From a virus, in the IMG/VR virus record IMGVR_UViG_3300035670_000026, positions 1 through 64,000 of that record: a stretch of DNA of 64,000 nt, one strand, 5' to 3'. The notes under the pieces are model-generated. The model worked only from the letters and a program-made list of their open reading frames with translations. It ran no database searches and had not been told where the DNA came from. A program made the position numbers and the translations under genes. This document shows, piece by piece, positions 3,629 to 9,482 of this stretch (its first letter is position 1; each line of letters opens with the position of its first letter).

Positions 3629-3859
3629 ATGGAAGATTTTATCTCACAAAACGAATTCCAATTAGAAATGTCTGCAATTAAAGAAGCAAAAATTAATGCT
3701 GACTGTGACCATATTTTGACTGAAGCTGATCGTTATGGTCTTCAGTTGGAGGTAGTTTGGTCTGCTTTTAAACATAAAGAAGATTTTCCAACTGCTTCTT
3801 TTCTTGAATGCCTACAAGTAGGTGCAAAAGATTGGGATGTTATAACTAAGTTTGGATAA
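3629..3859 (+). CDS. Small unknown protein
   Basis: 76 residues, helical, with a single tryptophan-rich turn near VVWSAFKHKEDFP. Last gene of the early three-gene unit before the RNA island. No recognisable family. Confidence 0.55.
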   Translation: MEDFISQNEFQLEMSAIKEAKINADCDHILTEADRYGLQLEVVWSAFKHKEDFPTASFLECLQVGAKDWDVITKFG

Positions 3860-3876
3860 TAAAAAAAAAGGTTATA

Positions 3877-3884
3877 TATTTATA
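3877..3884 (+). promoter_or_regulatory. TATTTATA late-type motif
   Basis: Octamer inside the inverted repeat GTTATATA-TT-TATATAAC, 10 nt before tRNA-Leu(TAA). Candidate gp55-dependent promoter core. Confidence 0.45.
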
Positions 3885-3893
3885 TAACAGAAA

Positions 3894-3980
3894 TACCGCC
3901 TTGGTGAAATAGGTAGACACGAGGGACTTAAAATCCCTTGGGCAGTGATGCTCGTGCCGGTTCGATTCCGGCAGGCGGTA
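3894..3980 (+). tRNA. tRNA-Leu(TAA)
   Basis: Acceptor TACCGCC/GGCGGTA pairs fully. Anticodon stem AGGGA/TCCCT holds loop CTTAAAA (anticodon TAA). It has the long variable arm of leucine tRNAs and a normal T-arm with GGTTCGATTCC. CCA is not encoded. Confidence 0.95.
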
Positions 3981-3987
3981 CAAAGAT

Positions 3988-3999
3988 TGTTCTTTAAAA
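3988..3999 (+). promoter_or_regulatory. boxA-like element
   Basis: TGTTCTTTAAAA just upstream of tRNA-Arg. It resembles the rrn boxA (TGCTCTTTAACA) bound by NusB/S10 for antitermination. Confidence 0.5.
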
Positions 4000-4002
4000 T
4001 AT

Positions 4003-4076
4003 GGTTCGGTAGCTCAGCTGGATAGAGCAACAGCCTTCTAAGCTGTGGGTCACAGGTTCGAATCCTGTTCGAATCA
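4003..4076 (+). tRNA. tRNA-Arg(TCT)
   Basis: Acceptor GGTTCGG with TCGAATC (two G-U pairs); anticodon loop CTTCTAA (TCT); T-arm CACAGGTTCGAATCCTGT. No encoded CCA. Confidence 0.93.
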
Positions 4077-4081
4077 CTAAA

Positions 4082-4155
4082 GCGCTTATAGCTCAGTTGG
4101 TTAGAGCATCCGACTCATAATCGGCAGGTCCTAGGTTCAAGCCCTAGTAGGCGCA
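4082..4155 (+). tRNA. tRNA with CAT anticodon (Met or Ile2)
   Basis: Acceptor GCGCTTA/TAGGCGC; anticodon stem CCGA/TCGG with loop CTCATAA. The sequence alone does not separate elongator Met from a lysidine-modified Ile(CAT). Since the island also has Ile(GAT) and Ile(TAT), Met is favoured. Confidence 0.9.
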
Positions 4156-4161
4156 CCTAAA

Positions 4162-4193
4162 TTTGGAGATATAAAATATTTATATTATATTAC
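4162..4193 (+). promoter_or_regulatory. Bacteroidetes-type promoter of the first structured RNA
   Basis: TTTGG at 4162-4166, 19-nt spacer, TATATTAC at 4186. It is followed at once by a boxA-like element, then a structured non-coding stretch. Confidence 0.6.
4177..4184 (+). promoter_or_regulatory. TATTTATA motif inside a promoter spacer
   Basis: The octamer lies within the spacer of the host-type promoter, so early and late recognition could overlap here. Confidence 0.35.
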
Positions 4194-4200
4194 CATTATA

Positions 4201-4213
4201 GTTCTTTGAAAAT
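4201..4213 (+). promoter_or_regulatory. boxA-like element
   Basis: GTTCTTTGAAAAT, 8 nt after the promoter core and before the structured RNA. This is the arrangement seen in rRNA leaders. Confidence 0.5.
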
Positions 4214-4230
4214 ATTAAATACCCAAAAGT

Positions 4231-4559
4231 GCCCCGATAGGATAACCTTTTTGCAATAACCTGCTGAAATTGCATTAACGGAGAGGTTCGCAAGCAGGTG
4301 AGGGTTCCCATTGGATATGAAAGTCTGGTGAGAAATAGGTTGGTTTAGTTCCCGTTATGTTTTTAGTAACATTATCGGGGCCGCTAAAAACGAGCGGAAG
4401 TTAAATTCAAAGTATTAAAGCAAAGTCAACACAATAGCTTTGTTCTCACAGCTTATTAGTAATACACGTCGGGAGGTGTAGCTAGTAAGGGAAAACGAAT
4501 AGGACGTCGGGTTCTAATCGCCAGATAGAAATATCATATTGCCGTGCTTAGAAATAAGC
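4231..4559 (+). ncRNA. Structured non-coding RNA, two domains
   Basis: No credible reading frame. Domain 1 is closed by a perfect 9-bp helix, GCCCCGATA (4231-4239) with TATCGGGGC (4373-4381), and contains ACCTGCT (4259-4265) with AGCAGGT (4293-4299). A hairpin CCGCT/AGCGG (4381-4397) follows. Domain 2 has CTTATTAG/CTAGTAAG enclosing TACAC/GTGTA, then two GAAA-tetraloop hairpins: GATA-GAAA-TATC (4524-4535) and GCTTA-GAAA-TAAGC (4546-4559). It ends 7 nt before a tRNA and has its own promoter and boxA. No family was recognised; it is not an evident tmRNA or RNase P RNA. Confidence 0.6.
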
Positions 4560-4565
4560 CAAAAT

Positions 4566-4636
4566 TGACGGTTCGTCTAACGGCAGGACGCTTGGCCCCG
4601 ACCCAAGAAATGTAGGTTCGATCCCTACACCGTTAA
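4566..4636 (+). tRNA. Atypical tRNA, apparent CCG anticodon (Arg?)
   Basis: Acceptor TGACGGT/ACCGTTA, D-stem GTCT/GGAC and T-arm GTAGG-TTCGATC-CCTAC are good. The anticodon stem CTTGG/CCAAG holds the loop CCCCGAC, read as CCG, but base 33 is C instead of the near-universal U. Body features resemble Gln/Glu-type phage tRNAs. Isotype and decoding ability are therefore uncertain. No encoded CCA. Confidence 0.65.
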
Positions 4637-4666
4637 CAAAGTTAGCTACAGACTTAAATGTGGAAT

Positions 4667-4751
4667 GGAAGATTGGCAGAGTGGTCGATCGCGGCAGTCT
4701 TGAAAACTGTTGTACCGCAAGGTACCGTAGGTTCGAATCCTACATCTTCCG
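4667..4751 (+). tRNA. tRNA-Ser(TGA)
   Basis: Acceptor GGAAGAT/ATCTTCC, discriminator G, anticodon loop CTTGAAA (TGA), long variable arm GTACCGCAAGGTAC, T-arm GTAGGTTCGAATCCTAC. Confidence 0.95.
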
Positions 4752-4773
4752 CTAAACTTAAAAATAAATAAAC

Positions 4774-5031
4774 ATGAATGAAGTTACAGTTACAGTACTG
4801 CCACATCCAGTGACAATGTTCTTTATAGGAGCAATGCTATTAGGTATAGTTTTACTGTTAATCGAATTTTCCAAAACCCGTCGTGAGGTTCGGGAAACTA
4901 AAAAAGAATTTAATACTATGAATAAACATATCATTGATGTTAAATCCTACACAGAAAAATCAATTCAAGAAGTTTCTCGTAAAGTAGATTCAAGAATCGA
5001 CAAAGCGCTTGGAAATTTAAAAAAAGATTGA
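4774..5031 (+). CDS. Small membrane protein with coiled-coil tail
   Basis: 85 residues: a short N-terminal segment, one transmembrane helix (about residues 13-30, VTMFFIGAMLLGIVLLLI), then a charged helical tail with heptad-like spacing. The topology suggests an inner-membrane anchor with a cytoplasmic coiled coil. It sits between tRNA-Ser and a lipoprotein gene, an odd place for a protein gene and often where phages keep host-interaction genes. Function unknown. Confidence 0.65.
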   Translation: MNEVTVTVLPHPVTMFFIGAMLLGIVLLLIEFSKTRREVRETKKEFNTMNKHIIDVKSYTEKSIQEVSRKVDSRIDKALGNLKKD

Positions 5032-5033
5032 TA

Positions 5034-5041
5034 TATTTATA
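5034..5041 (+). promoter_or_regulatory. TATTTATA late-type motif
   Basis: Octamer within ATATATTTATATAAC, 27 nt before the lipoprotein start. Confidence 0.5.
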
Positions 5042-5068
5042 TAACACAATTAATAATTAAAAACAAAG

Positions 5069-5230
5069 ATGAAAAAAACCTTTTTCGCACTTGTAGCAAT
5101 TGCTACCCTTGCTTCATGTACTAATAATACCGAAGCCACTTTAACTGATTCAACTTCGTGTGATACATGTGTTGTTGATTCAACTGTAGTTGATACGCTA
5201 TGTGTTGACACTACAGTAGTAGCCGAGTAA
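5069..5230 (+). CDS. Small phage lipoprotein
   Basis: 53 residues: MKK, a hydrophobic stretch (FFALVAIATLA), then the lipobox LASC with the cysteine at about residue 17, so a lipidated secreted protein is predicted. The mature part is about 37 residues, rich in Thr, Val and Asp, with near-repeats VDST/VDTL/VDTT and a C-x-x-C pair. Phage lipoproteins of this size often act in superinfection exclusion at the envelope; that is an inference only. It is preceded by a late-type motif and followed directly by tRNA-Thr. Confidence 0.8.
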   Translation: MKKTFFALVAIATLASCTNNTEATLTDSTSCDTCVVDSTVVDTLCVDTTVVAE

Positions 5231-5242
5231 TCGGCTTAAAAT

Positions 5243-5315
5243 GCCCGCGTAGCTCAATAGGTAGAGCAATTGATTTGTAATCAATAGGTTGTAGGTTCGA
5301 TTCCTATCGCTGGCT
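5243..5315 (+). tRNA. tRNA-Thr(TGT)
   Basis: Anticodon loop TTTGTAA (TGT) on stem ATTGA/TCAAT; normal D- and T-arms. The acceptor GCCCGCG/CGCTGGC carries one C-U mismatch at its fourth pair. Confidence 0.9.
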
Positions 5316-5323
5316 CAAAAAAA

Positions 5324-5335
5324 TGTTCTTTAACA
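5324..5335 (+). promoter_or_regulatory. boxA-like element
   Basis: TGTTCTTTAACA, one base from the E. coli rrn boxA TGCTCTTTAACA, in the 24-nt spacer between tRNA-Thr and tRNA-Gly. Confidence 0.6.
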
Positions 5336-5339
5336 TAAT

Positions 5340-5412
5340 GCGGTAGTAGCTCAGTTGGTAGAGCATGACCTTGCCAAGGTCAGGGTCGCTGGTTCGAACC
5401 CAGTTTGCCGCT
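5340..5412 (+). tRNA. tRNA-Gly(GCC)
   Basis: Acceptor GCGGTAG/TTGCCGC with G-U pairs; anticodon stem TGACC/GGTCA with loop TTGCCAA (GCC). No CCA. Confidence 0.93.
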
Positions 5413-5417
5413 CAAAT

Positions 5418-5489
5418 GCGAATATCGTATAATGGTTATTACTCCTTCCTTCCAAGTAGGAGATGTCGGTTCGATTCCGGCTATTCGCT
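5418..5489 (+). tRNA. tRNA-Gly(TCC)
   Basis: Acceptor GCGAATA/TATTCGC; anticodon loop CTTCCAA (TCC), with one mismatch in the anticodon stem; T-arm GTCGGTTCGATTCCGGC. Confidence 0.9.
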
Positions 5490-5520
5490 CAAAAAGCTTT
5501 TTAAAATTTTTTTAAAATAG

Positions 5521-5553
5521 CTTGGATGTTTGAAATTTCGTTCGTATATTTAC
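5521..5553 (+). promoter_or_regulatory. Bacteroidetes-type promoter of the large RNA
   Basis: CTTGG at 5521-5525, 19-nt spacer, TATATTTAC at 5545. It is followed by a boxA-like element and then the long structured non-coding region. Confidence 0.75.
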
Positions 5554-5577
5554 GGTATAGAAATTGAAAAACAAAAC

Positions 5578-5589
5578 GTTCTTTAAATT
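5578..5589 (+). promoter_or_regulatory. boxA-like element
   Basis: GTTCTTTAAATT directly before the first helix of the large RNA. Confidence 0.5.
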
Positions 5590-5594
5590 ATTGA

Positions 5595-6475
5595 AATATC
5601 CATTCAACGCAAGTTGATAAAAGATATTGGCCGTCTATGGTCGTTAAATAAACCTCGAAAGGGGGATAAAGTGAATTACATGACAAAGTAGTTTGCGGCT
5701 TCGAAAGGAGCTCGAGTAGACAAGCGAGATATCATTTAGTCTAAAGTAGTGAGGGTAACTCCGTAGCGAAACGATTGAATGACCTAGCGATGTGGGTCGT
5801 TAGGTTGAGTCCGGAAGGACAATAAGAATAACTCGTAGAATATATGTAAGAAGTATTTCCATCCAGATTTACAATTGCGTTATTCAATATCAGAGGGTAC
5901 TTAAAGCCGAAAGGCATGTAAATGTACAGGTGGTGCTGTTATTTACCTTGACCTTAGTCTACCAAGACATGAGTCATGAAGTAATCTTAAAGTATGGAGG
6001 TAGGGATATCTCAGAGAGTAGTTTAGTATTTTCTCGCTCAAAAGGTGAGAAAGCTAGGTTGGTAAGCCACTACTTTCAATCATCCACGTCAAAAACTTTG
6101 CTATTTGGAATGCAAATTCAAAACTAACAAAGCAAAAGTGCTTACCAGTCACGGACGAAAGATGCCTACATAGTAGTGAGTTGTTCACTGCCACTAGAGG
6201 TTGCAAGCCAATAGTGATTCGTTTGAAAAATTTGTAACCTCGGCAGGGGTTTATCAGACCGCAAGTTTGAACAGATAGAGTATAGCGAGAGTAGTCCAAT
6301 ACAAGTGACTTAAAGAGTGGTTCACTTAAATAACCGGCATTGTTAGGATACAAGTCAAAAGCTTGTGGATAAGAAGGGAATAAATAATCCGACAAAAGAT
6401 CTAACATATAAACGTATAATCTCAGCGTTTTAAAAATTTACGCAAGTTGGACATTTTAGAGGATCGTTTCCTCTA
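5595..6475 (+). ncRNA. Large ornate structured RNA (GOLLD/ROOL-like candidate)
   Basis: About 880 nt with no convincing gene on either strand and dense base-pairing. Examples: AATATC (5595) with GATATT (5623) enclosing TCAAC-GCAA-GTTGA; CCTC-GAAA-GGGG (5653); GCTTC-GAAA-GGAGC (5698); CCTAGCGA with TCGTTAGG; GTCC-GGAA-GGAC; GAATAAC (5826) with GTTATTC (5879); GCC-GAAA-GGC (5906); GAGGTTGCAA (6197) with TTGTAACCTC (6232); AAGTGA (6303) with TCACTT (6322); ACAAG/CTTGT (6350-6366); and a final TAGAGGA/TCCTCTA hairpin (6457-6475). Size, GNRA loops, own promoter and location in a phage tRNA island match the known GOLLD and ROOL RNA classes. Membership is inferred, and a new class is possible. Confidence 0.7.
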
Positions 6476-6499
6476 TTGCGACAAAAATAAAATTTAACA

Positions 6500-6507
6500 T
6501 ATTTATA
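6500..6507 (+). promoter_or_regulatory. TATTTATA late-type motif
   Basis: Within ACATATTTATAATAAAC, 26 nt before a possible 28-codon gene. Confidence 0.45.
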
Positions 6508-6533
6508 ATAAACATTTTTTAAATTCGATAACA

Positions 6534-6620
6534 ATGACACGCCATAGTATATATAACCTTCAAATGAACATTTGGTTTGCACCAGTGAAGGAGGATACCT
6601 TGCCGTGCTTTGTTGTATAA
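6534..6620 (+). CDS. Possible 28-residue peptide
   Basis: A short frame starting MTRHSIYNLQ and ending DTLPCFVV. Its support is positional only: a late-type motif lies 26 nt upstream and a strong terminator begins 32 nt after its stop. The stretch could equally be an untranslated late transcript or the tail of the large RNA unit. No similarity recognised. Confidence 0.25.
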   Translation: MTRHSIYNLQMNIWFAPVKEDTLPCFVV

Positions 6621-6652
6621 TGTGAAAATAAAAAACACTATGAAAAACAAAG

Positions 6653-6681
6653 CCCGGCCCTAAAAAGCCGGGTTTTTTTTT
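6653..6681 (+). terminator. Rho-independent terminator
   Basis: CCCGGC (6653-6658), 8-nt loop, GCCGGG (6667-6672), followed by nine T. It ends the large-RNA transcription unit just before a boxA-like element and tRNA-Lys. Confidence 0.9.
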
Positions 6682-6683
6682 GA

Positions 6684-6699
6684 GTTCTTTGACATGTTG
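6684..6699 (+). promoter_or_regulatory. boxA-like element
   Basis: GTTCTTTGACATGTTG, close to the leader sequence upstream of 16S rRNA in many Bacteroidetes. It lies between a terminator and tRNA-Lys, so it may mark readthrough or an unseen promoter. Confidence 0.6.
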
Positions 6700-6709
6700 G
6701 AAAAAAGAC

Positions 6710-6784
6710 GACCTCATAGCTCAATTGGTTTAGAGCACTATACTTTTAATATAGGGGTTTCGAGTTCGAGTCTCGATGGGGTCA
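6710..6784 (+). tRNA. tRNA-Lys(TTT)
   Basis: Acceptor GACCTCA/TGGGGTC; anticodon stem CTATA/TATAG with loop CTTTTAA (TTT); T-arm CGAGTTCGAGTCTCG. Confidence 0.94.
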
Positions 6785-6808
6785 CAAAAAAATCGTAGCG
6801 TACCGAAA

Positions 6809-6864
6809 GGGAAAAAGATGATTTAGCCAATCATCACAGGTTAAGCGATATCCTGTAATTTCCC
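6809..6864 (+). ncRNA. Spacer RNA with three-way-junction fold, overlapping tRNA-Val 5' end
   Basis: GGGAAA (6809) pairs with TTTCCC (6859-6864) and encloses two perfect hairpins: GATGATT-TAGCC-AATCATC (6817-6835) and ACAGG/CCTGT (6836-6856). The closing helix uses the first three bases of tRNA-Val, so the fold competes with the tRNA acceptor stem. It lies between tRNA-Lys and tRNA-Val. Role unknown. Confidence 0.5.
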
Positions 6865-6934
6865 ACCTTAGCTCAGTTGGTAGAGCGCTTGCCTTACATG
6901 CAAGATGTCGCTGGTTCGAGTCCAGCAGGAGGGA
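6862..6934 (+). tRNA. tRNA-Val(TAC)
   Basis: Acceptor CCCACCT/AGGAGGG with one A-A mismatch; anticodon stem CTTGC/GCAAG with loop CTTACAT (TAC); strong T-arm CTGGTTCGAGTCCAG. Confidence 0.92.
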
Positions 6935-6941
6935 CAAAAAT

Positions 6942-7023
6942 GCCAGTATCGCATAGCGGCAATTGCAGCTGACTGTAAATCAGCTCCCTTACGGGTTCGG
7001 AGGTTCGAGTCCTTCTGCTGGCA
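6942..7023 (+). tRNA. tRNA-Tyr(GTA)
   Basis: Acceptor GCCAGTA/TGCTGGC; anticodon loop CTGTAAA (GTA); long variable arm CCCTTACGGG as in bacterial tyrosine tRNAs; T-arm GGAGGTTCGAGTCCTT. Confidence 0.93.
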
Positions 7024-7033
7024 CAAATAAAAT

Positions 7034-7106
7034 GGATAGGTAGCTCAGTTGGTAGAGCGTCGGCCTGAAGAGCCGAGCGTCGGGGGTTCAAATCCCTCTC
7101 TGTCCA
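7034..7106 (+). tRNA. tRNA-Phe(GAA)
   Basis: Acceptor GGATAGG/TCTGTCC; anticodon stem TCGGC/GCCGA with loop CTGAAGA (GAA); T-arm GGGGGTTCAAATCCCTC. Confidence 0.94.
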
Positions 7107-7112
7107 CAATAT

Positions 7113-7186
7113 GGAGATATAGCTCAGTTGGTTAGAGCACTTGCCTGATACGCAGGGGGTCATAGGTTCGAGTCCTATTTTCTCCA
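7113..7186 (+). tRNA. tRNA-Ile(GAT)
   Basis: Acceptor GGAGATA/TTTCTCC with one mismatch; anticodon loop CTGATAC (GAT); T-arm ATAGGTTCGAGTCCTAT. Confidence 0.93.
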
Positions 7187-7192
7187 CTTAAT

Positions 7193-7265
7193 AGTGATAT
7201 AGCTCAATGGTGAGAGCAGATGCCTTATACGCATCAGGTTACGAGTTCGAGTCTCGTTATCACTA
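7193..7265 (+). tRNA. tRNA-Ile(TAT)
   Basis: Acceptor AGTGATA/TATCACT; anticodon stem GATGC/GCATC with loop CTTATAC (TAT). Bacteria normally read AUA with a lysidine-modified CAT tRNA, so a direct UAU isoacceptor is unusual and would let the phage read its AUA codons without TilS. Confidence 0.92.
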
Positions 7266-7270
7266 CAATT

Positions 7271-7354
7271 GGAAGGTAAAGCAACCAGGGTGTTGTCACC
7301 GCCTGCTAAGCGAGTGGTACTTTCGAGTATGAATTTCGATTATTCTGCCTTCCG
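7271..7354 (+). tRNA. tRNA-Ser(GCT)
   Basis: Acceptor GGAAGGT/GCCTTCC, discriminator G, anticodon loop CTGCTAA (GCT), long variable arm TACTTTCGAGTA. The T-loop is TTCGATT on an AT-rich stem, and the anticodon stem has one C-A mismatch, so it is a slightly degenerate but plausible serine tRNA. Confidence 0.82.
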
Positions 7355-7379
7355 CTAAAATTTAAAAACTATGTAAAAA

Positions 7380-7387
7380 TATTTATA
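7380..7387 (+). promoter_or_regulatory. TATTTATA late-type motif
   Basis: Within AAATATTTATAAAA, 11 nt before the DUF458 gene. Confidence 0.5.
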
Positions 7388-7398
7388 AAAAAACAGCT

Positions 7399-7851
7399 AT
7401 GCAATTCAAGACTCTCCGAAACAGAAAAGACATTGATCTGGTTGAATACGTTCGGGACTACATCAATGAAAATCCACAAGTTGAAATCCTTATAGGATGC
7501 GACTCACAAAACCATATAGACACTACAGTATATGCTACAGTGGTTGCTCTATACAAACCACAAGCTGGTGCCCATGTTCTTTTCTGTAAAGAGGTTACTC
7601 AAACAGAAAAAGTTCGTCAAGTTAGATTGATGAATGAAGTTTGGAAATCAATTGAAGTTGCCGAATTACTAAAAAATTCAGGTTTACCAAGAGCAAAATA
7701 TATCGATATTGACCTTAACCCAGATAAAAGATTTAAATCAAATGAAGTTCTAAGAGCAGCAGTTGGTTTAGTTGAAGGAATGGGTTACAGCGTTAGATAT
7801 AAATCATTAGGTGCATTAGTAACTACAGCGGCTGATGCATTGGTAAAATAA
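7399..7851 (+). CDS. DUF458 (YkuK-like) RNase H-fold protein
   Basis: 150 residues. The segment ILIGCDSQNH (about 31-40), a mid-protein RLMNEVWKSIEVAELL helix and IDIDLNPDKRFKSNEVLRAAVG match DUF458/YkuK, a family predicted to have an RNase H-like (RuvC-type) fold. Candidate acidic residues are Asp in GCDS, Glu in MNEVW and Asp in DIDLNP. The family's role is uncertain; processing or cleavage of structured nucleic acid is plausible. Notably it sits alone inside the tRNA and structured-RNA island, a suggestive but unproven location for an RNA-processing nuclease. It has its own late-type motif. Confidence 0.78.
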   Translation: MQFKTLRNRKDIDLVEYVRDYINENPQVEILIGCDSQNHIDTTVYATVVALYKPQAGAHVLFCKEVTQTEKVRQVRLMNEVWKSIEVAELLKNSGLPRAKYIDIDLNPDKRFKSNEVLRAAVGLVEGMGYSVRYKSLGALVTTAADALVK

Positions 7852-7855
7852 TCAA

Positions 7856-7929
7856 GGTCCCTTAGCTCAACGGATTAGAGCACTTCGCTACGGACGAAGG
7901 GGTTAGGAGTTCGAATCTCTTAGGGACTA
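7856..7929 (+). tRNA. tRNA-Arg(ACG)
   Basis: Acceptor GGTCCCT/AGGGACT; anticodon stem CTTCG/CGAAG with loop CTACGGA (ACG). A34 needs host TadA to make inosine. Starts 4 nt after the DUF458 stop. Confidence 0.93.
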
Positions 7930-7934
7930 CAAAT

Positions 7935-8005
7935 GGTCCTATGTCCGATTGGCAAGGTGAAGCTCTGCAAAAGCTTTTATGTTGGTTCAAATCCAACTAG
8001 GACCT
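7935..8005 (+). tRNA. tRNA-Cys(GCA)
   Basis: Acceptor GGTCCTA/TAGGACC with discriminator T (usual for Cys); anticodon stem AAGCT/AGCTT with loop CTGCAAA (GCA). Confidence 0.93.
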
Positions 8006-8011
8006 CAATAC

Positions 8012-8082
8012 ATGGGTGTGGTGAAATGGTATCATTACGGTCTCCAAAACCGCAGTTCAGGGTTCGAATCCTTGCACCCGTG
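8012..8082 (+). tRNA. tRNA-Trp(CCA)
   Basis: Acceptor ATGGGTG/CACCCGT with discriminator G; anticodon loop CTCCAAA (CCA); T-arm CAGGGTTCGAATCCTTG. It is followed by CCA in the genome, the only clear case in the island. Confidence 0.92.
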
Positions 8083-8093
8083 CCAACTATCCG

Positions 8094-8125
8094 ATGTGTT
8101 TACCGAGCTAGGTCGGTTTTAACAT
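8094..8125 (+). ncRNA. Short hairpin spacer RNA before tRNA-His
   Basis: ATGT (8094-8097) pairs with ACAT (8122-8125), enclosing ACCGA-GCTAGG-TCGGT (8102-8117) and a TTTT run. The 3' base abuts the G-1 of tRNA-His. It could also work as a weak terminator. Confidence 0.4.
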
Positions 8126-8199
8126 GGTGGATATAGCTCAATCGGGAGAGCGTTGGTTTGTGGAACCAAAGGTAGTGGGATCGAAACCCACTATTCACC
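8126..8199 (+). tRNA. tRNA-His(GTG)
   Basis: Acceptor GTGGATA/TATTCAC plus the histidine-specific G-1 opposite discriminator C; anticodon stem TTGGT/ACCAA with loop TTGTGGA (GTG). Confidence 0.94.
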
Positions 8200-8218
8200 C
8201 AAAAAATTTCACCAAAAA

Positions 8219-8251
8219 TTTGGAGAAGTAAAAGATTAGTCGTACATTTAC
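8219..8251 (+). promoter_or_regulatory. Bacteroidetes-type promoter of the second tRNA unit
   Basis: TTTGG at 8219-8223, 19-nt spacer, TACATTTAC at 8243. It drives the unit from tRNA-Leu(TAG) to tRNA-Pro. Confidence 0.75.
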
Positions 8252-8272
8252 GACATAGAATTAAGAACAAGT

Positions 8273-8284
8273 TGTTCTTTGACG
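8273..8284 (+). promoter_or_regulatory. boxA-like element
   Basis: TGTTCTTTGACG, followed by TATTGGAAAAAA as in Bacteroidetes rRNA leaders. It lies between the promoter and tRNA-Leu(TAG). Confidence 0.6.
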
Positions 8285-8297
8285 TATTGGAAAAAAT

Positions 8298-8379
8298 GCC
8301 TTGGTGGTGGAAATGGTAGACACAGCGGTCTTAGAAACCGTAGCTTTATCGCTTGCGAGTTCGAGTCTCGCCCGAGGTA
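8298..8379 (+). tRNA. tRNA-Leu(TAG)
   Basis: Acceptor GCCTTGG/CCGAGGT; anticodon stem CGGT/ACCG with loop CTTAGAA (TAG); long variable arm; T-arm CGAGTTCGAGTCTCG. Confidence 0.93.
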
Positions 8380-8382
8380 CAA

Positions 8383-8582
8383 ATGAAACACTTCCTACAG
8401 AAGACAGATTAGCACTGTTGAAAGGAACCTTGGCTTACGGGAGTAATTACCATAGTAAGTTACAAAATGACCCAAGGTACTCTGTGATGGACCCTGCTCT
8501 GTGGTGCACTCATAACAGGTGGACAGTAAACTATGTCCAGTCAAATCCACAACTACGGTGAGCGTAGAGGAAGCAGTTTCAT
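8383..8582 (+). ncRNA. Spacer RNA (about 200 nt) closed by an interrupted long helix
   Basis: It fills the whole gap between tRNA-Leu and tRNA-Asn. Terminal helix: ATGAAAC (8383-8389) and CTTCC (8391-8395) pair with GTTTCAT (8576-8582) and GGAAG (8569-8573). Inside are ACCTTGG/CCAAGGT (8427-8433 with 8472-8478) stacked on CTTAC/GTAAG (8434-8438 with 8455-8459), and TGGACA/TGTCCA (8520-8539). An 86-codon frame here overlaps tRNA-Leu and is not credible. Function unknown; the outer helix suggests release by tRNA processing. Confidence 0.6.
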
Positions 8583-8586
8583 ATTC

Positions 8587-8658
8587 GTCTTGGTAGCTCA
8601 GTGGTAGAGCTAGCGGCTGTTAACCGCTCGGCCGGAGGTTCGAATCCTCCCCAGGACG
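8587..8658 (+). tRNA. tRNA-Asn(GTT)
   Basis: Acceptor GTCTTGG/CCAGGAC with discriminator G; anticodon stem AGCGG/CCGCT with loop CTGTTAA (GTT). Confidence 0.94.
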
Positions 8659-8666
8659 CAAAAAAT

Positions 8667-8738
8667 GGCCCGTTCGTCTATCGGTTAGGACACCAGGTTT
8701 TCAACCTGTAAAGACGAGTTCGACTCTCGTACGGGCTA
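8667..8738 (+). tRNA. tRNA-Glu(TTC)
   Basis: Acceptor GGCCCGT/ACGGGCT; anticodon loop TTTTCAA (TTC); D-arm GTCTATCGGTTAGGAC typical of Glu; T-arm ACGAGTTCGACTCTCGT. Confidence 0.93.
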
Positions 8739-8741
8739 CAA

Positions 8742-8837
8742 AAATTATATCCTTAGGTACCCATACAGCGGTGAGATGGGCTAAGTTAGATACAATTCCT
8801 CGGAGCTGGGAGTAGAATGCCTAATGTGATATGATTT
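8742..8837 (+). ncRNA. Spacer RNA (about 96 nt) between tRNA-Glu and tRNA-Met
   Basis: AAATTATATC (8742-8751) pairs with GATATGATTT (8828-8837), 10 bp with one G-U. Inside, CTTAG/CTAAG (8752-8756 with 8781-8785) stacks on CCCAT/ATGGG (8760-8764 with 8776-8780). No reading frame. The two ends lie 3 and 10 nt from the flanking tRNAs. Confidence 0.6.
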
Positions 8838-8847
8838 AAAAATAAAT

Positions 8848-8922
8848 TGCGGGGAACTAGAGCTGGTGCACTGACGAGTCTCATAAGCTCGGACTAGGTG
8901 GGTTCGATTCCCTCCCCCGCAA
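8848..8922 (+). tRNA. tRNA with CAT anticodon (Met, possibly initiator-like)
   Basis: Acceptor TGCGGGG/CCCCGCA; anticodon stem CGAGT/GCTCG with loop CTCATAA. The acceptor and 3' end resemble bacterial initiator tRNA, but the 1-72 position is a T-A pair rather than the initiator C-A mismatch, and the anticodon stem lacks three G-C pairs. Elongator Met or Ile2 remain possible. Confidence 0.88.
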
Positions 8923-8928
8923 CTATAT

Positions 8929-8999
8929 TTTCCTCTCGTCTAATGGCAGGACAAGTGGTTTTGAGCCACTGAATCGGAGTTCGAATCTCTGGGGGAAAA
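8929..8999 (+). tRNA. tRNA-Gln(TTG)
   Basis: Acceptor TTTCCTC/GGGGAAA; anticodon stem AGTGG/CCACT with loop TTTTGAG (TTG); D-arm GTCTAATGGCAGGAC. Confidence 0.93.
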
Positions 9000-9004
9000 C
9001 AATT

Positions 9005-9077
9005 GGGGTTGTAGCTCAACTGGCTGAGCGCTTCCTTTGCAAGGAAGAGGATGAGGGTTCGAATCCCTTCTGCTCCA
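9005..9077 (+). tRNA. tRNA-Ala(TGC)
   Basis: Acceptor GGGGTTG/CTGCTCC with one mismatch; anticodon stem CTTCC/GGAAG with loop TTTGCAA (TGC); T-arm AGGGTTCGAATCCCT. Confidence 0.93.
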
Positions 9078-9080
9078 CAA

Positions 9081-9157
9081 TTGGTAAGTTCCTCACACCT
9101 AGGGTTAGTGAATAATTTAAAGGAGGCATGTAAATACACAAGGTTACAACTTACCAA
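9081..9157 (+). ncRNA. Spacer RNA (77 nt) between tRNA-Ala and tRNA-Asp
   Basis: A perfect 10-bp terminal helix, TTGGTAAGTT (9081-9090) with AACTTACCAA (9148-9157), encloses CCTC/GAGG (9091-9094 with 9123-9126) and a small ACCTAGGGT hairpin. The domain begins 3 nt after tRNA-Ala and ends 4 nt before tRNA-Asp. No reading frame. Confidence 0.65.
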
Positions 9158-9161
9158 ATTC

Positions 9162-9233
9162 GGTCCATTGGTGTAATGGCTAACATGCAGCACTGTCTAT
9201 GCTGCGCTACGAGTTCGATTCTCGTATGGACCG
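9162..9233 (+). tRNA. tRNA-Asp(GTC)
   Basis: Acceptor GGTCCAT/ATGGACC with discriminator G; anticodon stem CAGCA/TGCTG with loop CTGTCTA (GTC). Confidence 0.94.
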
Positions 9234-9235
9234 CT

Positions 9236-9362
9236 AAAGAAAAAGTAGTGAAGCTGTAATTGAGAAGTAGAGTGTATTAATTGCTGAAAAAGGGTTTATA
9301 GTAAGTAGGCGTCACTCATTGCACTCAATCAGAAACCCTGAAAGACCCGAAGCTTTTTCTTT
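9236..9362 (+). ncRNA. Spacer RNA (127 nt) between tRNA-Asp and tRNA-Pro
   Basis: A perfect 10-bp terminal helix, AAAGAAAAAG (9236-9245) with CTTTTTCTTT (9353-9362), encloses AGGGTTT/AAACCCT (9291-9297 with 9333-9339) and further short complements (ATTGAG/CTCAAT). It begins 2 nt after tRNA-Asp and ends 3 nt before tRNA-Pro. No reading frame. Confidence 0.62.
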
Positions 9363-9365
9363 TCT

Positions 9366-9438
9366 CGGGAAGTAGATCAGTTGGTAGATCGCCTGGTTTG
9401 GGACCAGGAGGCCGCAGGTTCGAGTCCTGTCTTCCCGA
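9366..9438 (+). tRNA. tRNA-Pro(TGG)
   Basis: Acceptor CGGGAAG/CTTCCCG; anticodon stem CCTGG/CCAGG with loop TTTGGGA (TGG). Last tRNA of the island. Confidence 0.94.
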
Positions 9439-9474
9439 CAATAATTTTTCCAATATGTCTTTGTAATTGGTTAA

Positions 9475-9482
9475 TATTTATA
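9475..9482 (+). promoter_or_regulatory. TATTTATA late-type motif of the lysis cassette
   Basis: Within TTAATATTTATAATAAA, 18 nt before the first holin-like gene. Confidence 0.6.

Follow-up and report, generated by a model that had tools for sequence, protein, structure and literature searches.

The window analyzed here is a 64,000-nucleotide stretch forming part of a 149,817-base virus record. ARAGORN, which misses some tRNAs, placed 26 tRNA genes at 3895-9439 of the window, in agreement with the positions implied by a preliminary description. The promoter-like motifs, together with relatives in Cellulophaga and Flavobacterium, may point to a host among the Bacteroidota. When compared with named phages by megablast, the region gave only short matches, all in tRNA genes. 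The features are as follows.

6014-6428, plus strand: GOLLD RNA (RF02032, conserved 3′ part) in the same tRNA array; cmscan, 273.9 bits.
8094-8125, plus strand: small hairpin in the tRNA-Trp/tRNA-His gap; recurs in the related loci L097 and L098.
8127-9439, plus strand: punctuating tRNA genes for His, Leu, Asn, Glu, Met, Gln, Ala, Asp and Pro; ARAGORN.
8219-8250, plus strand: putative promoter-like element TTTGGA...TACATTTA upstream of tRNA-Leu; pattern match.
8273-8285, plus strand: boxA-like GTTCTTTGACG, one of six in 3990-8275, a putative antitermination signal; pattern match.
8383-8582, plus strand: structured RNA of ~200 nt between tRNA-Leu and tRNA-Asn, closing helix 8383-8389/8576-8582; covariation and tRNA contexts.
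8483-8545, plus strand: freshwater-1 core (RF02979) inside 8383-8582; cmscan.
8742-8837, plus strand: structured RNA family C between tRNA-Glu and tRNA-Met, closing helix 8742-8751/8828-8837; p=0.005.
9081-9157, plus strand: structured RNA family B (new, 77 nt) between tRNA-Ala and tRNA-Asp, closing helix 9081-9090/9148-9157; p=0.001.
9236-9362, plus strand: structured RNA family A (new, not in Rfam) between tRNA-Asp and tRNA-Pro; homologues, alignment, covariance model R1, p=0.002.

The non-tRNA Rfam matches in the array and its relatives were GOLLD, freshwater-1 and tmRNA, the last also encoded on the related-phage contigs L013, L116, L130, L146, L162, L163 and L166; in cultured relatives, the matches were a group I intron and tRNAs. 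The domains 8094-8125, 8742-8837, 9081-9157 and 9236-9362 had no Rfam match in a search of 3850-9480 at E up to 1. A boxA-like GTTCTTTRA occurs six times, 5′ of tRNA or GOLLD blocks, at 3990, 4202, 5326, 5579, 6685 and 8275, and these motifs suggest antitermination of long RNA transcripts. The 408-nt gap between tRNA-Met and tRNA-Arg (4158-4565) looks structured (CCCCGATA ... TATCGGGG) and has almost no relatives among the loci fetched.

For each gap, we scored the best contiguous helix joining its two ends, permitted at most 12 nt from both, against dinucleotide-preserving shuffles. Four of the five domains previously proposed were significant at exactly the coordinates claimed: 9081-9157 (TTGGTAAGTT/AACTTACCAA, p=0.001), 9236-9362 (AAAGAAAAAGT/GCTTTTTCTTT, p=0.002), 8742-8837 (AAATTATATC/GATATGATTT, p=0.005) and 8383-8582 (ATGAAAC/GTTTCAT, p=0.02). 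The terminal helix proposed for 8094-8125 was not significant (p=0.27-0.43 in the shuffle tests); this segment consists of a 5-bp hairpin (ACCGA/TCGGT) and a weak 4-bp outer helix, and the hairpin recurs in L097 and also, at another tRNA junction and with one compensated pair, in L098. The claim that nearly every longer gap is filled in this way has an exception in 8201-8297, where no closing helix was seen (p=0.47) and the promoter-like TTTGGA..TACATTTA is followed by a boxA-like GTTCTTTGA. The gap family of the promoter-like element at 8219-8250 displayed no RNA covariation in the alignment fold (z=0).

Among these RNAs, family A is widespread. Its closing helix P1 pairs 9236-9246 with 9352-9362, P2 pairs 9254-9256 and 9259-9264 with 9324-9332, and P4 pairs 9281-9285 with 9304-9308 around the loop GAAAAAGGGUUNNUAGUA. 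A pseudoknot between 9292-9296 and 9334-9338 (GGGUU/AACCC) is predicted, whose pairs hardly vary and lie beyond proof by covariation. In an alignment of 56 sequences, 94.6% of cells were paired, compared with 79.5% after shuffling and 38-57% after sliding; 21 of 30 pairs were doubly changed, including 11/11 in the closing helix, a P1 share that is inflated because the rows were picked for having a closing helix, whereas P2 and P4 played no part in the choice. Among loci found by the internal motif alone, the closing helix was present in 61 of 81 non-redundant cases, compared with 11% of swapped ends. Some pattern matches have no helix; several of these look permuted or otherwise rearranged by eye, and the others may be chance matches. 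The unpaired GAAAAAGGGUUNNUAGUA and AACCC are invariant across phages of different phyla.

Homologues of family A were found at ~60 distinct IMG/VR loci and in many cultured phages. The internal motif matched 93 IMG/VR stretches and two Flavobacteriales MAG contigs, and the full architecture is present on the Flavobacteriales MAG contig L261. The window copy scores 140.8 bits with R1, and this model, built without the cultured-phage copies, recovers them at E values of 1e-12 to 5e-6. A blastn search with the copy from a Klebsiella phage returned 64 named phage records, mostly unannotated under the match. tRNAs flank family A in Erwinia phages Hena1 and pEa_SNUABM_55, in Klebsiella phage KP13-26, and in two E. 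coli phages, G2469 and the Mosigvirus mogra, with tRNA-Met and tRNA-Arg as the neighbors in mogra. The distance from CCA to P1 is 4-6 nt in cultured enterobacterial phages. No single gene is linked to the standalone copies; a T-run directly follows P1 in L182 and L231, and likewise in L257, where the copy stands after a tRNA, while promoter-like sequence lies just 5′ of the RNA in L182 and L218. In Klebsiella phage VLCpiM5b (L276, 591-895), family A is inserted in a group I intron (RF00028, 69.8 bits) that splits the DNA polymerase gene. By eye, an apparently circularly permuted form, with the P4 hairpin first and P1 closed by a loop, also occurs outside tRNA arrays in Cellulophaga phages and several IMG/VR contigs (L272, L273, L194, L202, L205, L234 and L254); the R1 scores of these forms are weak (E about 1e-3 for the two Cellulophaga copies).

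Homologues of family B, retrieved with CACCTAGGGTTAGTG, lie between Thr>Gly, Glu>Ile, Phe>Glu and other tRNA pairs. In an alignment of 18 sequences, double changes occurred at 17/17 pairs tested, with a covariation of 0.666 compared with 0.236 after shuffling, and the closing helix was present in 20 of 27 loci compared with 12% of swaps. Family C (8742-8837), whose core has homologues in RNAs that other phages carry in their Gly>Gln slot, had double changes at 5 of 19 pairs and is less well supported than the other families.

The freshwater-1 core in the window scored 70.6 bits in cmscan, just under the gathering score of 72 (E=2.4e-15), and the homologues L166 (84.7) and L162 (73.8) exceeded that score. 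The 8383-8582 domain is homologous to the passing L166, aligning with it over 189 nt at 83% with joint covariation. Because the core lies inside the domain and its relatives are above threshold, we regard 8383-8582 as an extended freshwater-1 RNA. In an alignment of eight sequences, from which the structure itself was derived, 97.3% of cells were paired compared with 83.7% after shuffling and 33-43% after sliding, and 29 of 50 pairs were doubly changed. The 62-nt RF02979 model covers only the core of this domain and its relatives, whereas the RNA described here measures ~200 nt and has a covarying closing helix beside the tRNAs, with a tRNA within reach in 109 of 117 pattern loci. RNAs of the freshwater-1 type occupy 23 tRNA contexts, and the closing helix was found in 35 of 44 distinct gaps compared with 17% of swaps. 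Among named phages, blastn gave no match to 8381-8586, and we found no paper on freshwater-1 in the open-access literature.

Closing helices were in clear excess among related phages. Contigs collected via two neighboring proteins and one conserved DNA stretch yielded 1600 tRNA-tRNA gaps, of which a non-redundant set of 375, each 35-350 nt long, was compared with a control made by exchanging 3′ ends among unrelated gaps. A closing-helix score of at least 16 was reached by 100 of the 375 gaps compared with 6.4 expected, a ~15-fold excess; only about a quarter of the gaps tested thus pass the strict helix test. At p<=0.02, there were 92 gaps from 49 sequence families compared with 7.5 expected, and 12 of the 36 gaps from three cultured phages had p<=0.05 compared with 1.8 expected. 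The alignment-fold z was -3.4 or lower for most of the 26 testable gap families, a count that varies with the blastn thresholds. The 5′ arm mostly starts 0-2 nt past the upstream tRNA and the 3′ arm mostly stops 4-5 nt before the next one; where the helix was not significant, arm offsets were scattered. Plain tRNA-tRNA spacing in the arrays is likewise most often 4-5 nt, and most tRNA neighbors stand 4-7 nt apart. The cassette is thus placed as if between the end of one tRNA and the normal leader of the next. These tight arm offsets and the covarying helices bear out the proposal of an organized array of structured RNAs set flush between tRNAs, and the compensatory changes in terminal helices that the preliminary description had suggested looking for are present in the alignments of related phages.

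The cassettes also differ between slots and between phages. Near-identical phages can differ by an entire cassette, their Asp>Ser slot spanning 131 nt in L006 and L016 but 8 nt in L007; the Leu>Asn slot holds 5 nt or any of several different RNAs, and the Ala>Asp slot holds 7, 83, 119 or 220 nt. At the blastn thresholds used, 35 of the 90 gap families with more than one member occur in at least two tRNA contexts. Comparison by eye of empty and filled sites revealed no evident target-site duplication, and the arms differ widely in sequence between copies yet stay complementary. Some gaps contain two domains, or tRNAs missed by ARAGORN.

Overall, we favor as the probable explanation that the domains are independent phage RNA genes lodged in the tRNA array, cut out at the tRNA ends and acting in trans. 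The recurrence of these RNAs between various tRNA pairs in many phages, cultured ones included, makes them look like genuine small-RNA genes, which probably exploit tRNA maturation for their excision. The presence of family A in cultured-phage arrays, in a group I intron and standalone with a terminator argues for discrete RNA genes. Several unrelated families of phage non-coding RNA genes would share the tRNA array as a common transcription and processing track, and a single long antiterminated transcript would be cut at the mature tRNA ends, by RNase Z or a 3′-maturation nuclease on the side of the upstream tRNA and by RNase P on the side of the downstream tRNA. Each RNA would be freed with both ends inside P1, which would then shield them. 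RNase P and RNase Z take these roles in tRNA maturation generally. According to a review, RNase P cuts transcripts of several tRNAs apart and also acts on other RNAs (PMC11143913). Release by tRNA-processing enzymes fits the arm offsets and the standalone ends; the ends of family A are the same whether set by a terminator or by flanking tRNAs, which indirectly supports excision at the tRNA ends. Cuts at tRNAs may not always be enough, given the two domains or missed tRNAs in some gaps, and the 4-6 nt between CCA and P1 in enterobacterial phages make trimming or an RNase E-type cut likely there. Transcription, cutting, stability and action in trans of the domains are what we infer from these arrangements.

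That unpaired loops are conserved favors action through a folded surface. The freed RNAs would work in trans via such conserved surfaces and not by pairing with messages; for 9236-9362, the surface would be a pseudoknot whose loop is invariant. The cassettes would be exchanged among slots and phages by recombination between tRNA genes. A role of the RNAs in host takeover or counter-defence is a guess.

The closing helices abut the tRNAs, and their sequence varies freely while pairing is retained; both would also be expected if the domains were structured spacers, insulators that stop neighboring tRNAs from misfolding and present them to the enzymes, with the excised piece having no job. We consider this unlikely because the unpaired internal motifs of family A are invariant across phyla, the same family stands alone with a terminator and in a group I intron, and the short plain spacing suffices for most tRNA neighbors. 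The T-run after P1 in a few standalone copies is terminator-like, and boxA-like motifs recur in the array, so the domains might instead be cis-acting elements of transcription control, namely terminators, antiterminators or processing delays. However, the copies in arrays mostly have no T-run and are followed by more tRNAs, and the standalone copies are unconnected to any one gene; hence, we regard cis control as a distinctly poor prospect.

The finding of one element in many tRNA contexts, cleanly present or absent, is what mobile MITE-like DNA elements would produce, with the closing helix as their terminal inverted repeats. However, it is the complementarity of the arms and not their sequence that is conserved between copies, the internal helices covary, and no target-site duplication was evident, making this origin very improbable. 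Such inverted-repeat transposons were rejected, as no conserved terminal repeat sequence was found. The domains occupy tRNA slots and might be read as decayed tRNA genes or tRNA-like remnants; however, a search at E up to 1 found no match to a tRNA model inside the five gaps, and the conserved folds with covariation are not those of tRNAs, so that this origin is scarcely credible.

The preliminary description knew of no described system like this one, a view that several precedents fail to support: T4 RNAs C and D, the GOLLD RNA in the array, and the freshwater-1 core inside 8383-8582. In E. coli, spacer RNAs of tRNA operons are released from the tRNA precursor, between or after tRNAs, and serve as sRNA sponges. 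Such sponges act by base pairing, whereas the folds of the RNAs described here are deeply conserved. T4 RNAs C and D (rnaC and rnaD, species 1 and 2; 139 and 119 nt) are, like the window domains, structured non-tRNA RNAs within a phage tRNA cluster, but they sit at its end and not between tRNAs, and no closing helix is evident in their folds. R1, which represents the 9236-9362 family only, finds nothing in the T4 rnaC/rnaD region (L266), and we saw no homology of this family to either RNA. Both have been described as small regulatory RNAs that are expressed late and whose function is yet unknown, and RNA C has been validated by Northern blot (PMC9697503). They are a precedent for tRNA clusters giving rise to stable RNAs other than tRNAs. 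GOLLD and ROOL are phage RNAs of unknown function often found near tRNA islands (PMC12286853), but they are far larger single families that form nanocages and not sets of small interchangeable units. Group I introns (RF00028) are linked to family A by the one copy inside the VLCpiM5b intron; family A itself has no intron core and normally lies outside introns.

We found no paper on inter-tRNA RNA cassettes in the literature searched. Given T4 RNAs C and D, GOLLD and ROOL, the kind is already known, and what appears new is the scale, the interchangeable helix-closed cassettes, the extended form of freshwater-1, and at least two new RNA families. If our reading is true, the unexplained long spacers of phage tRNA arrays would become a discoverable catalogue of RNA genes, it would become clear how one phage can express many small RNAs with no promoter and terminator for each, and the old puzzle of the stable RNAs C and D of T4 would gain a wider context. 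Phages propagated on E. coli K-12 carry family A, which puts the question within reach of a direct test. We tentatively speculate, with more doubt than conviction, that tRNA arrays are general RNA islands, in which many unrelated compact trans-acting RNAs are traded across bacterial phyla as helix-closed cassettes, matured by host tRNA enzymes, and used along with the phage tRNAs against host defence or for takeover of the host machinery.

The array also holds an RNase H-like gene (PF04308, DUF458/YkuK type) at 7399-7851, which might be a candidate participant in processing. Among 87 related contigs with this gene, tRNAs lie within 300 nt on both sides in 39 and on one side in 38; the contigs were partly gathered via the gene, which biases its presence and, less so, its position. 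Immediately 5′ of it, a conserved stretch with GGAAGG...CCTTCC ends (7267-7398) has 79-95% identity in relatives.
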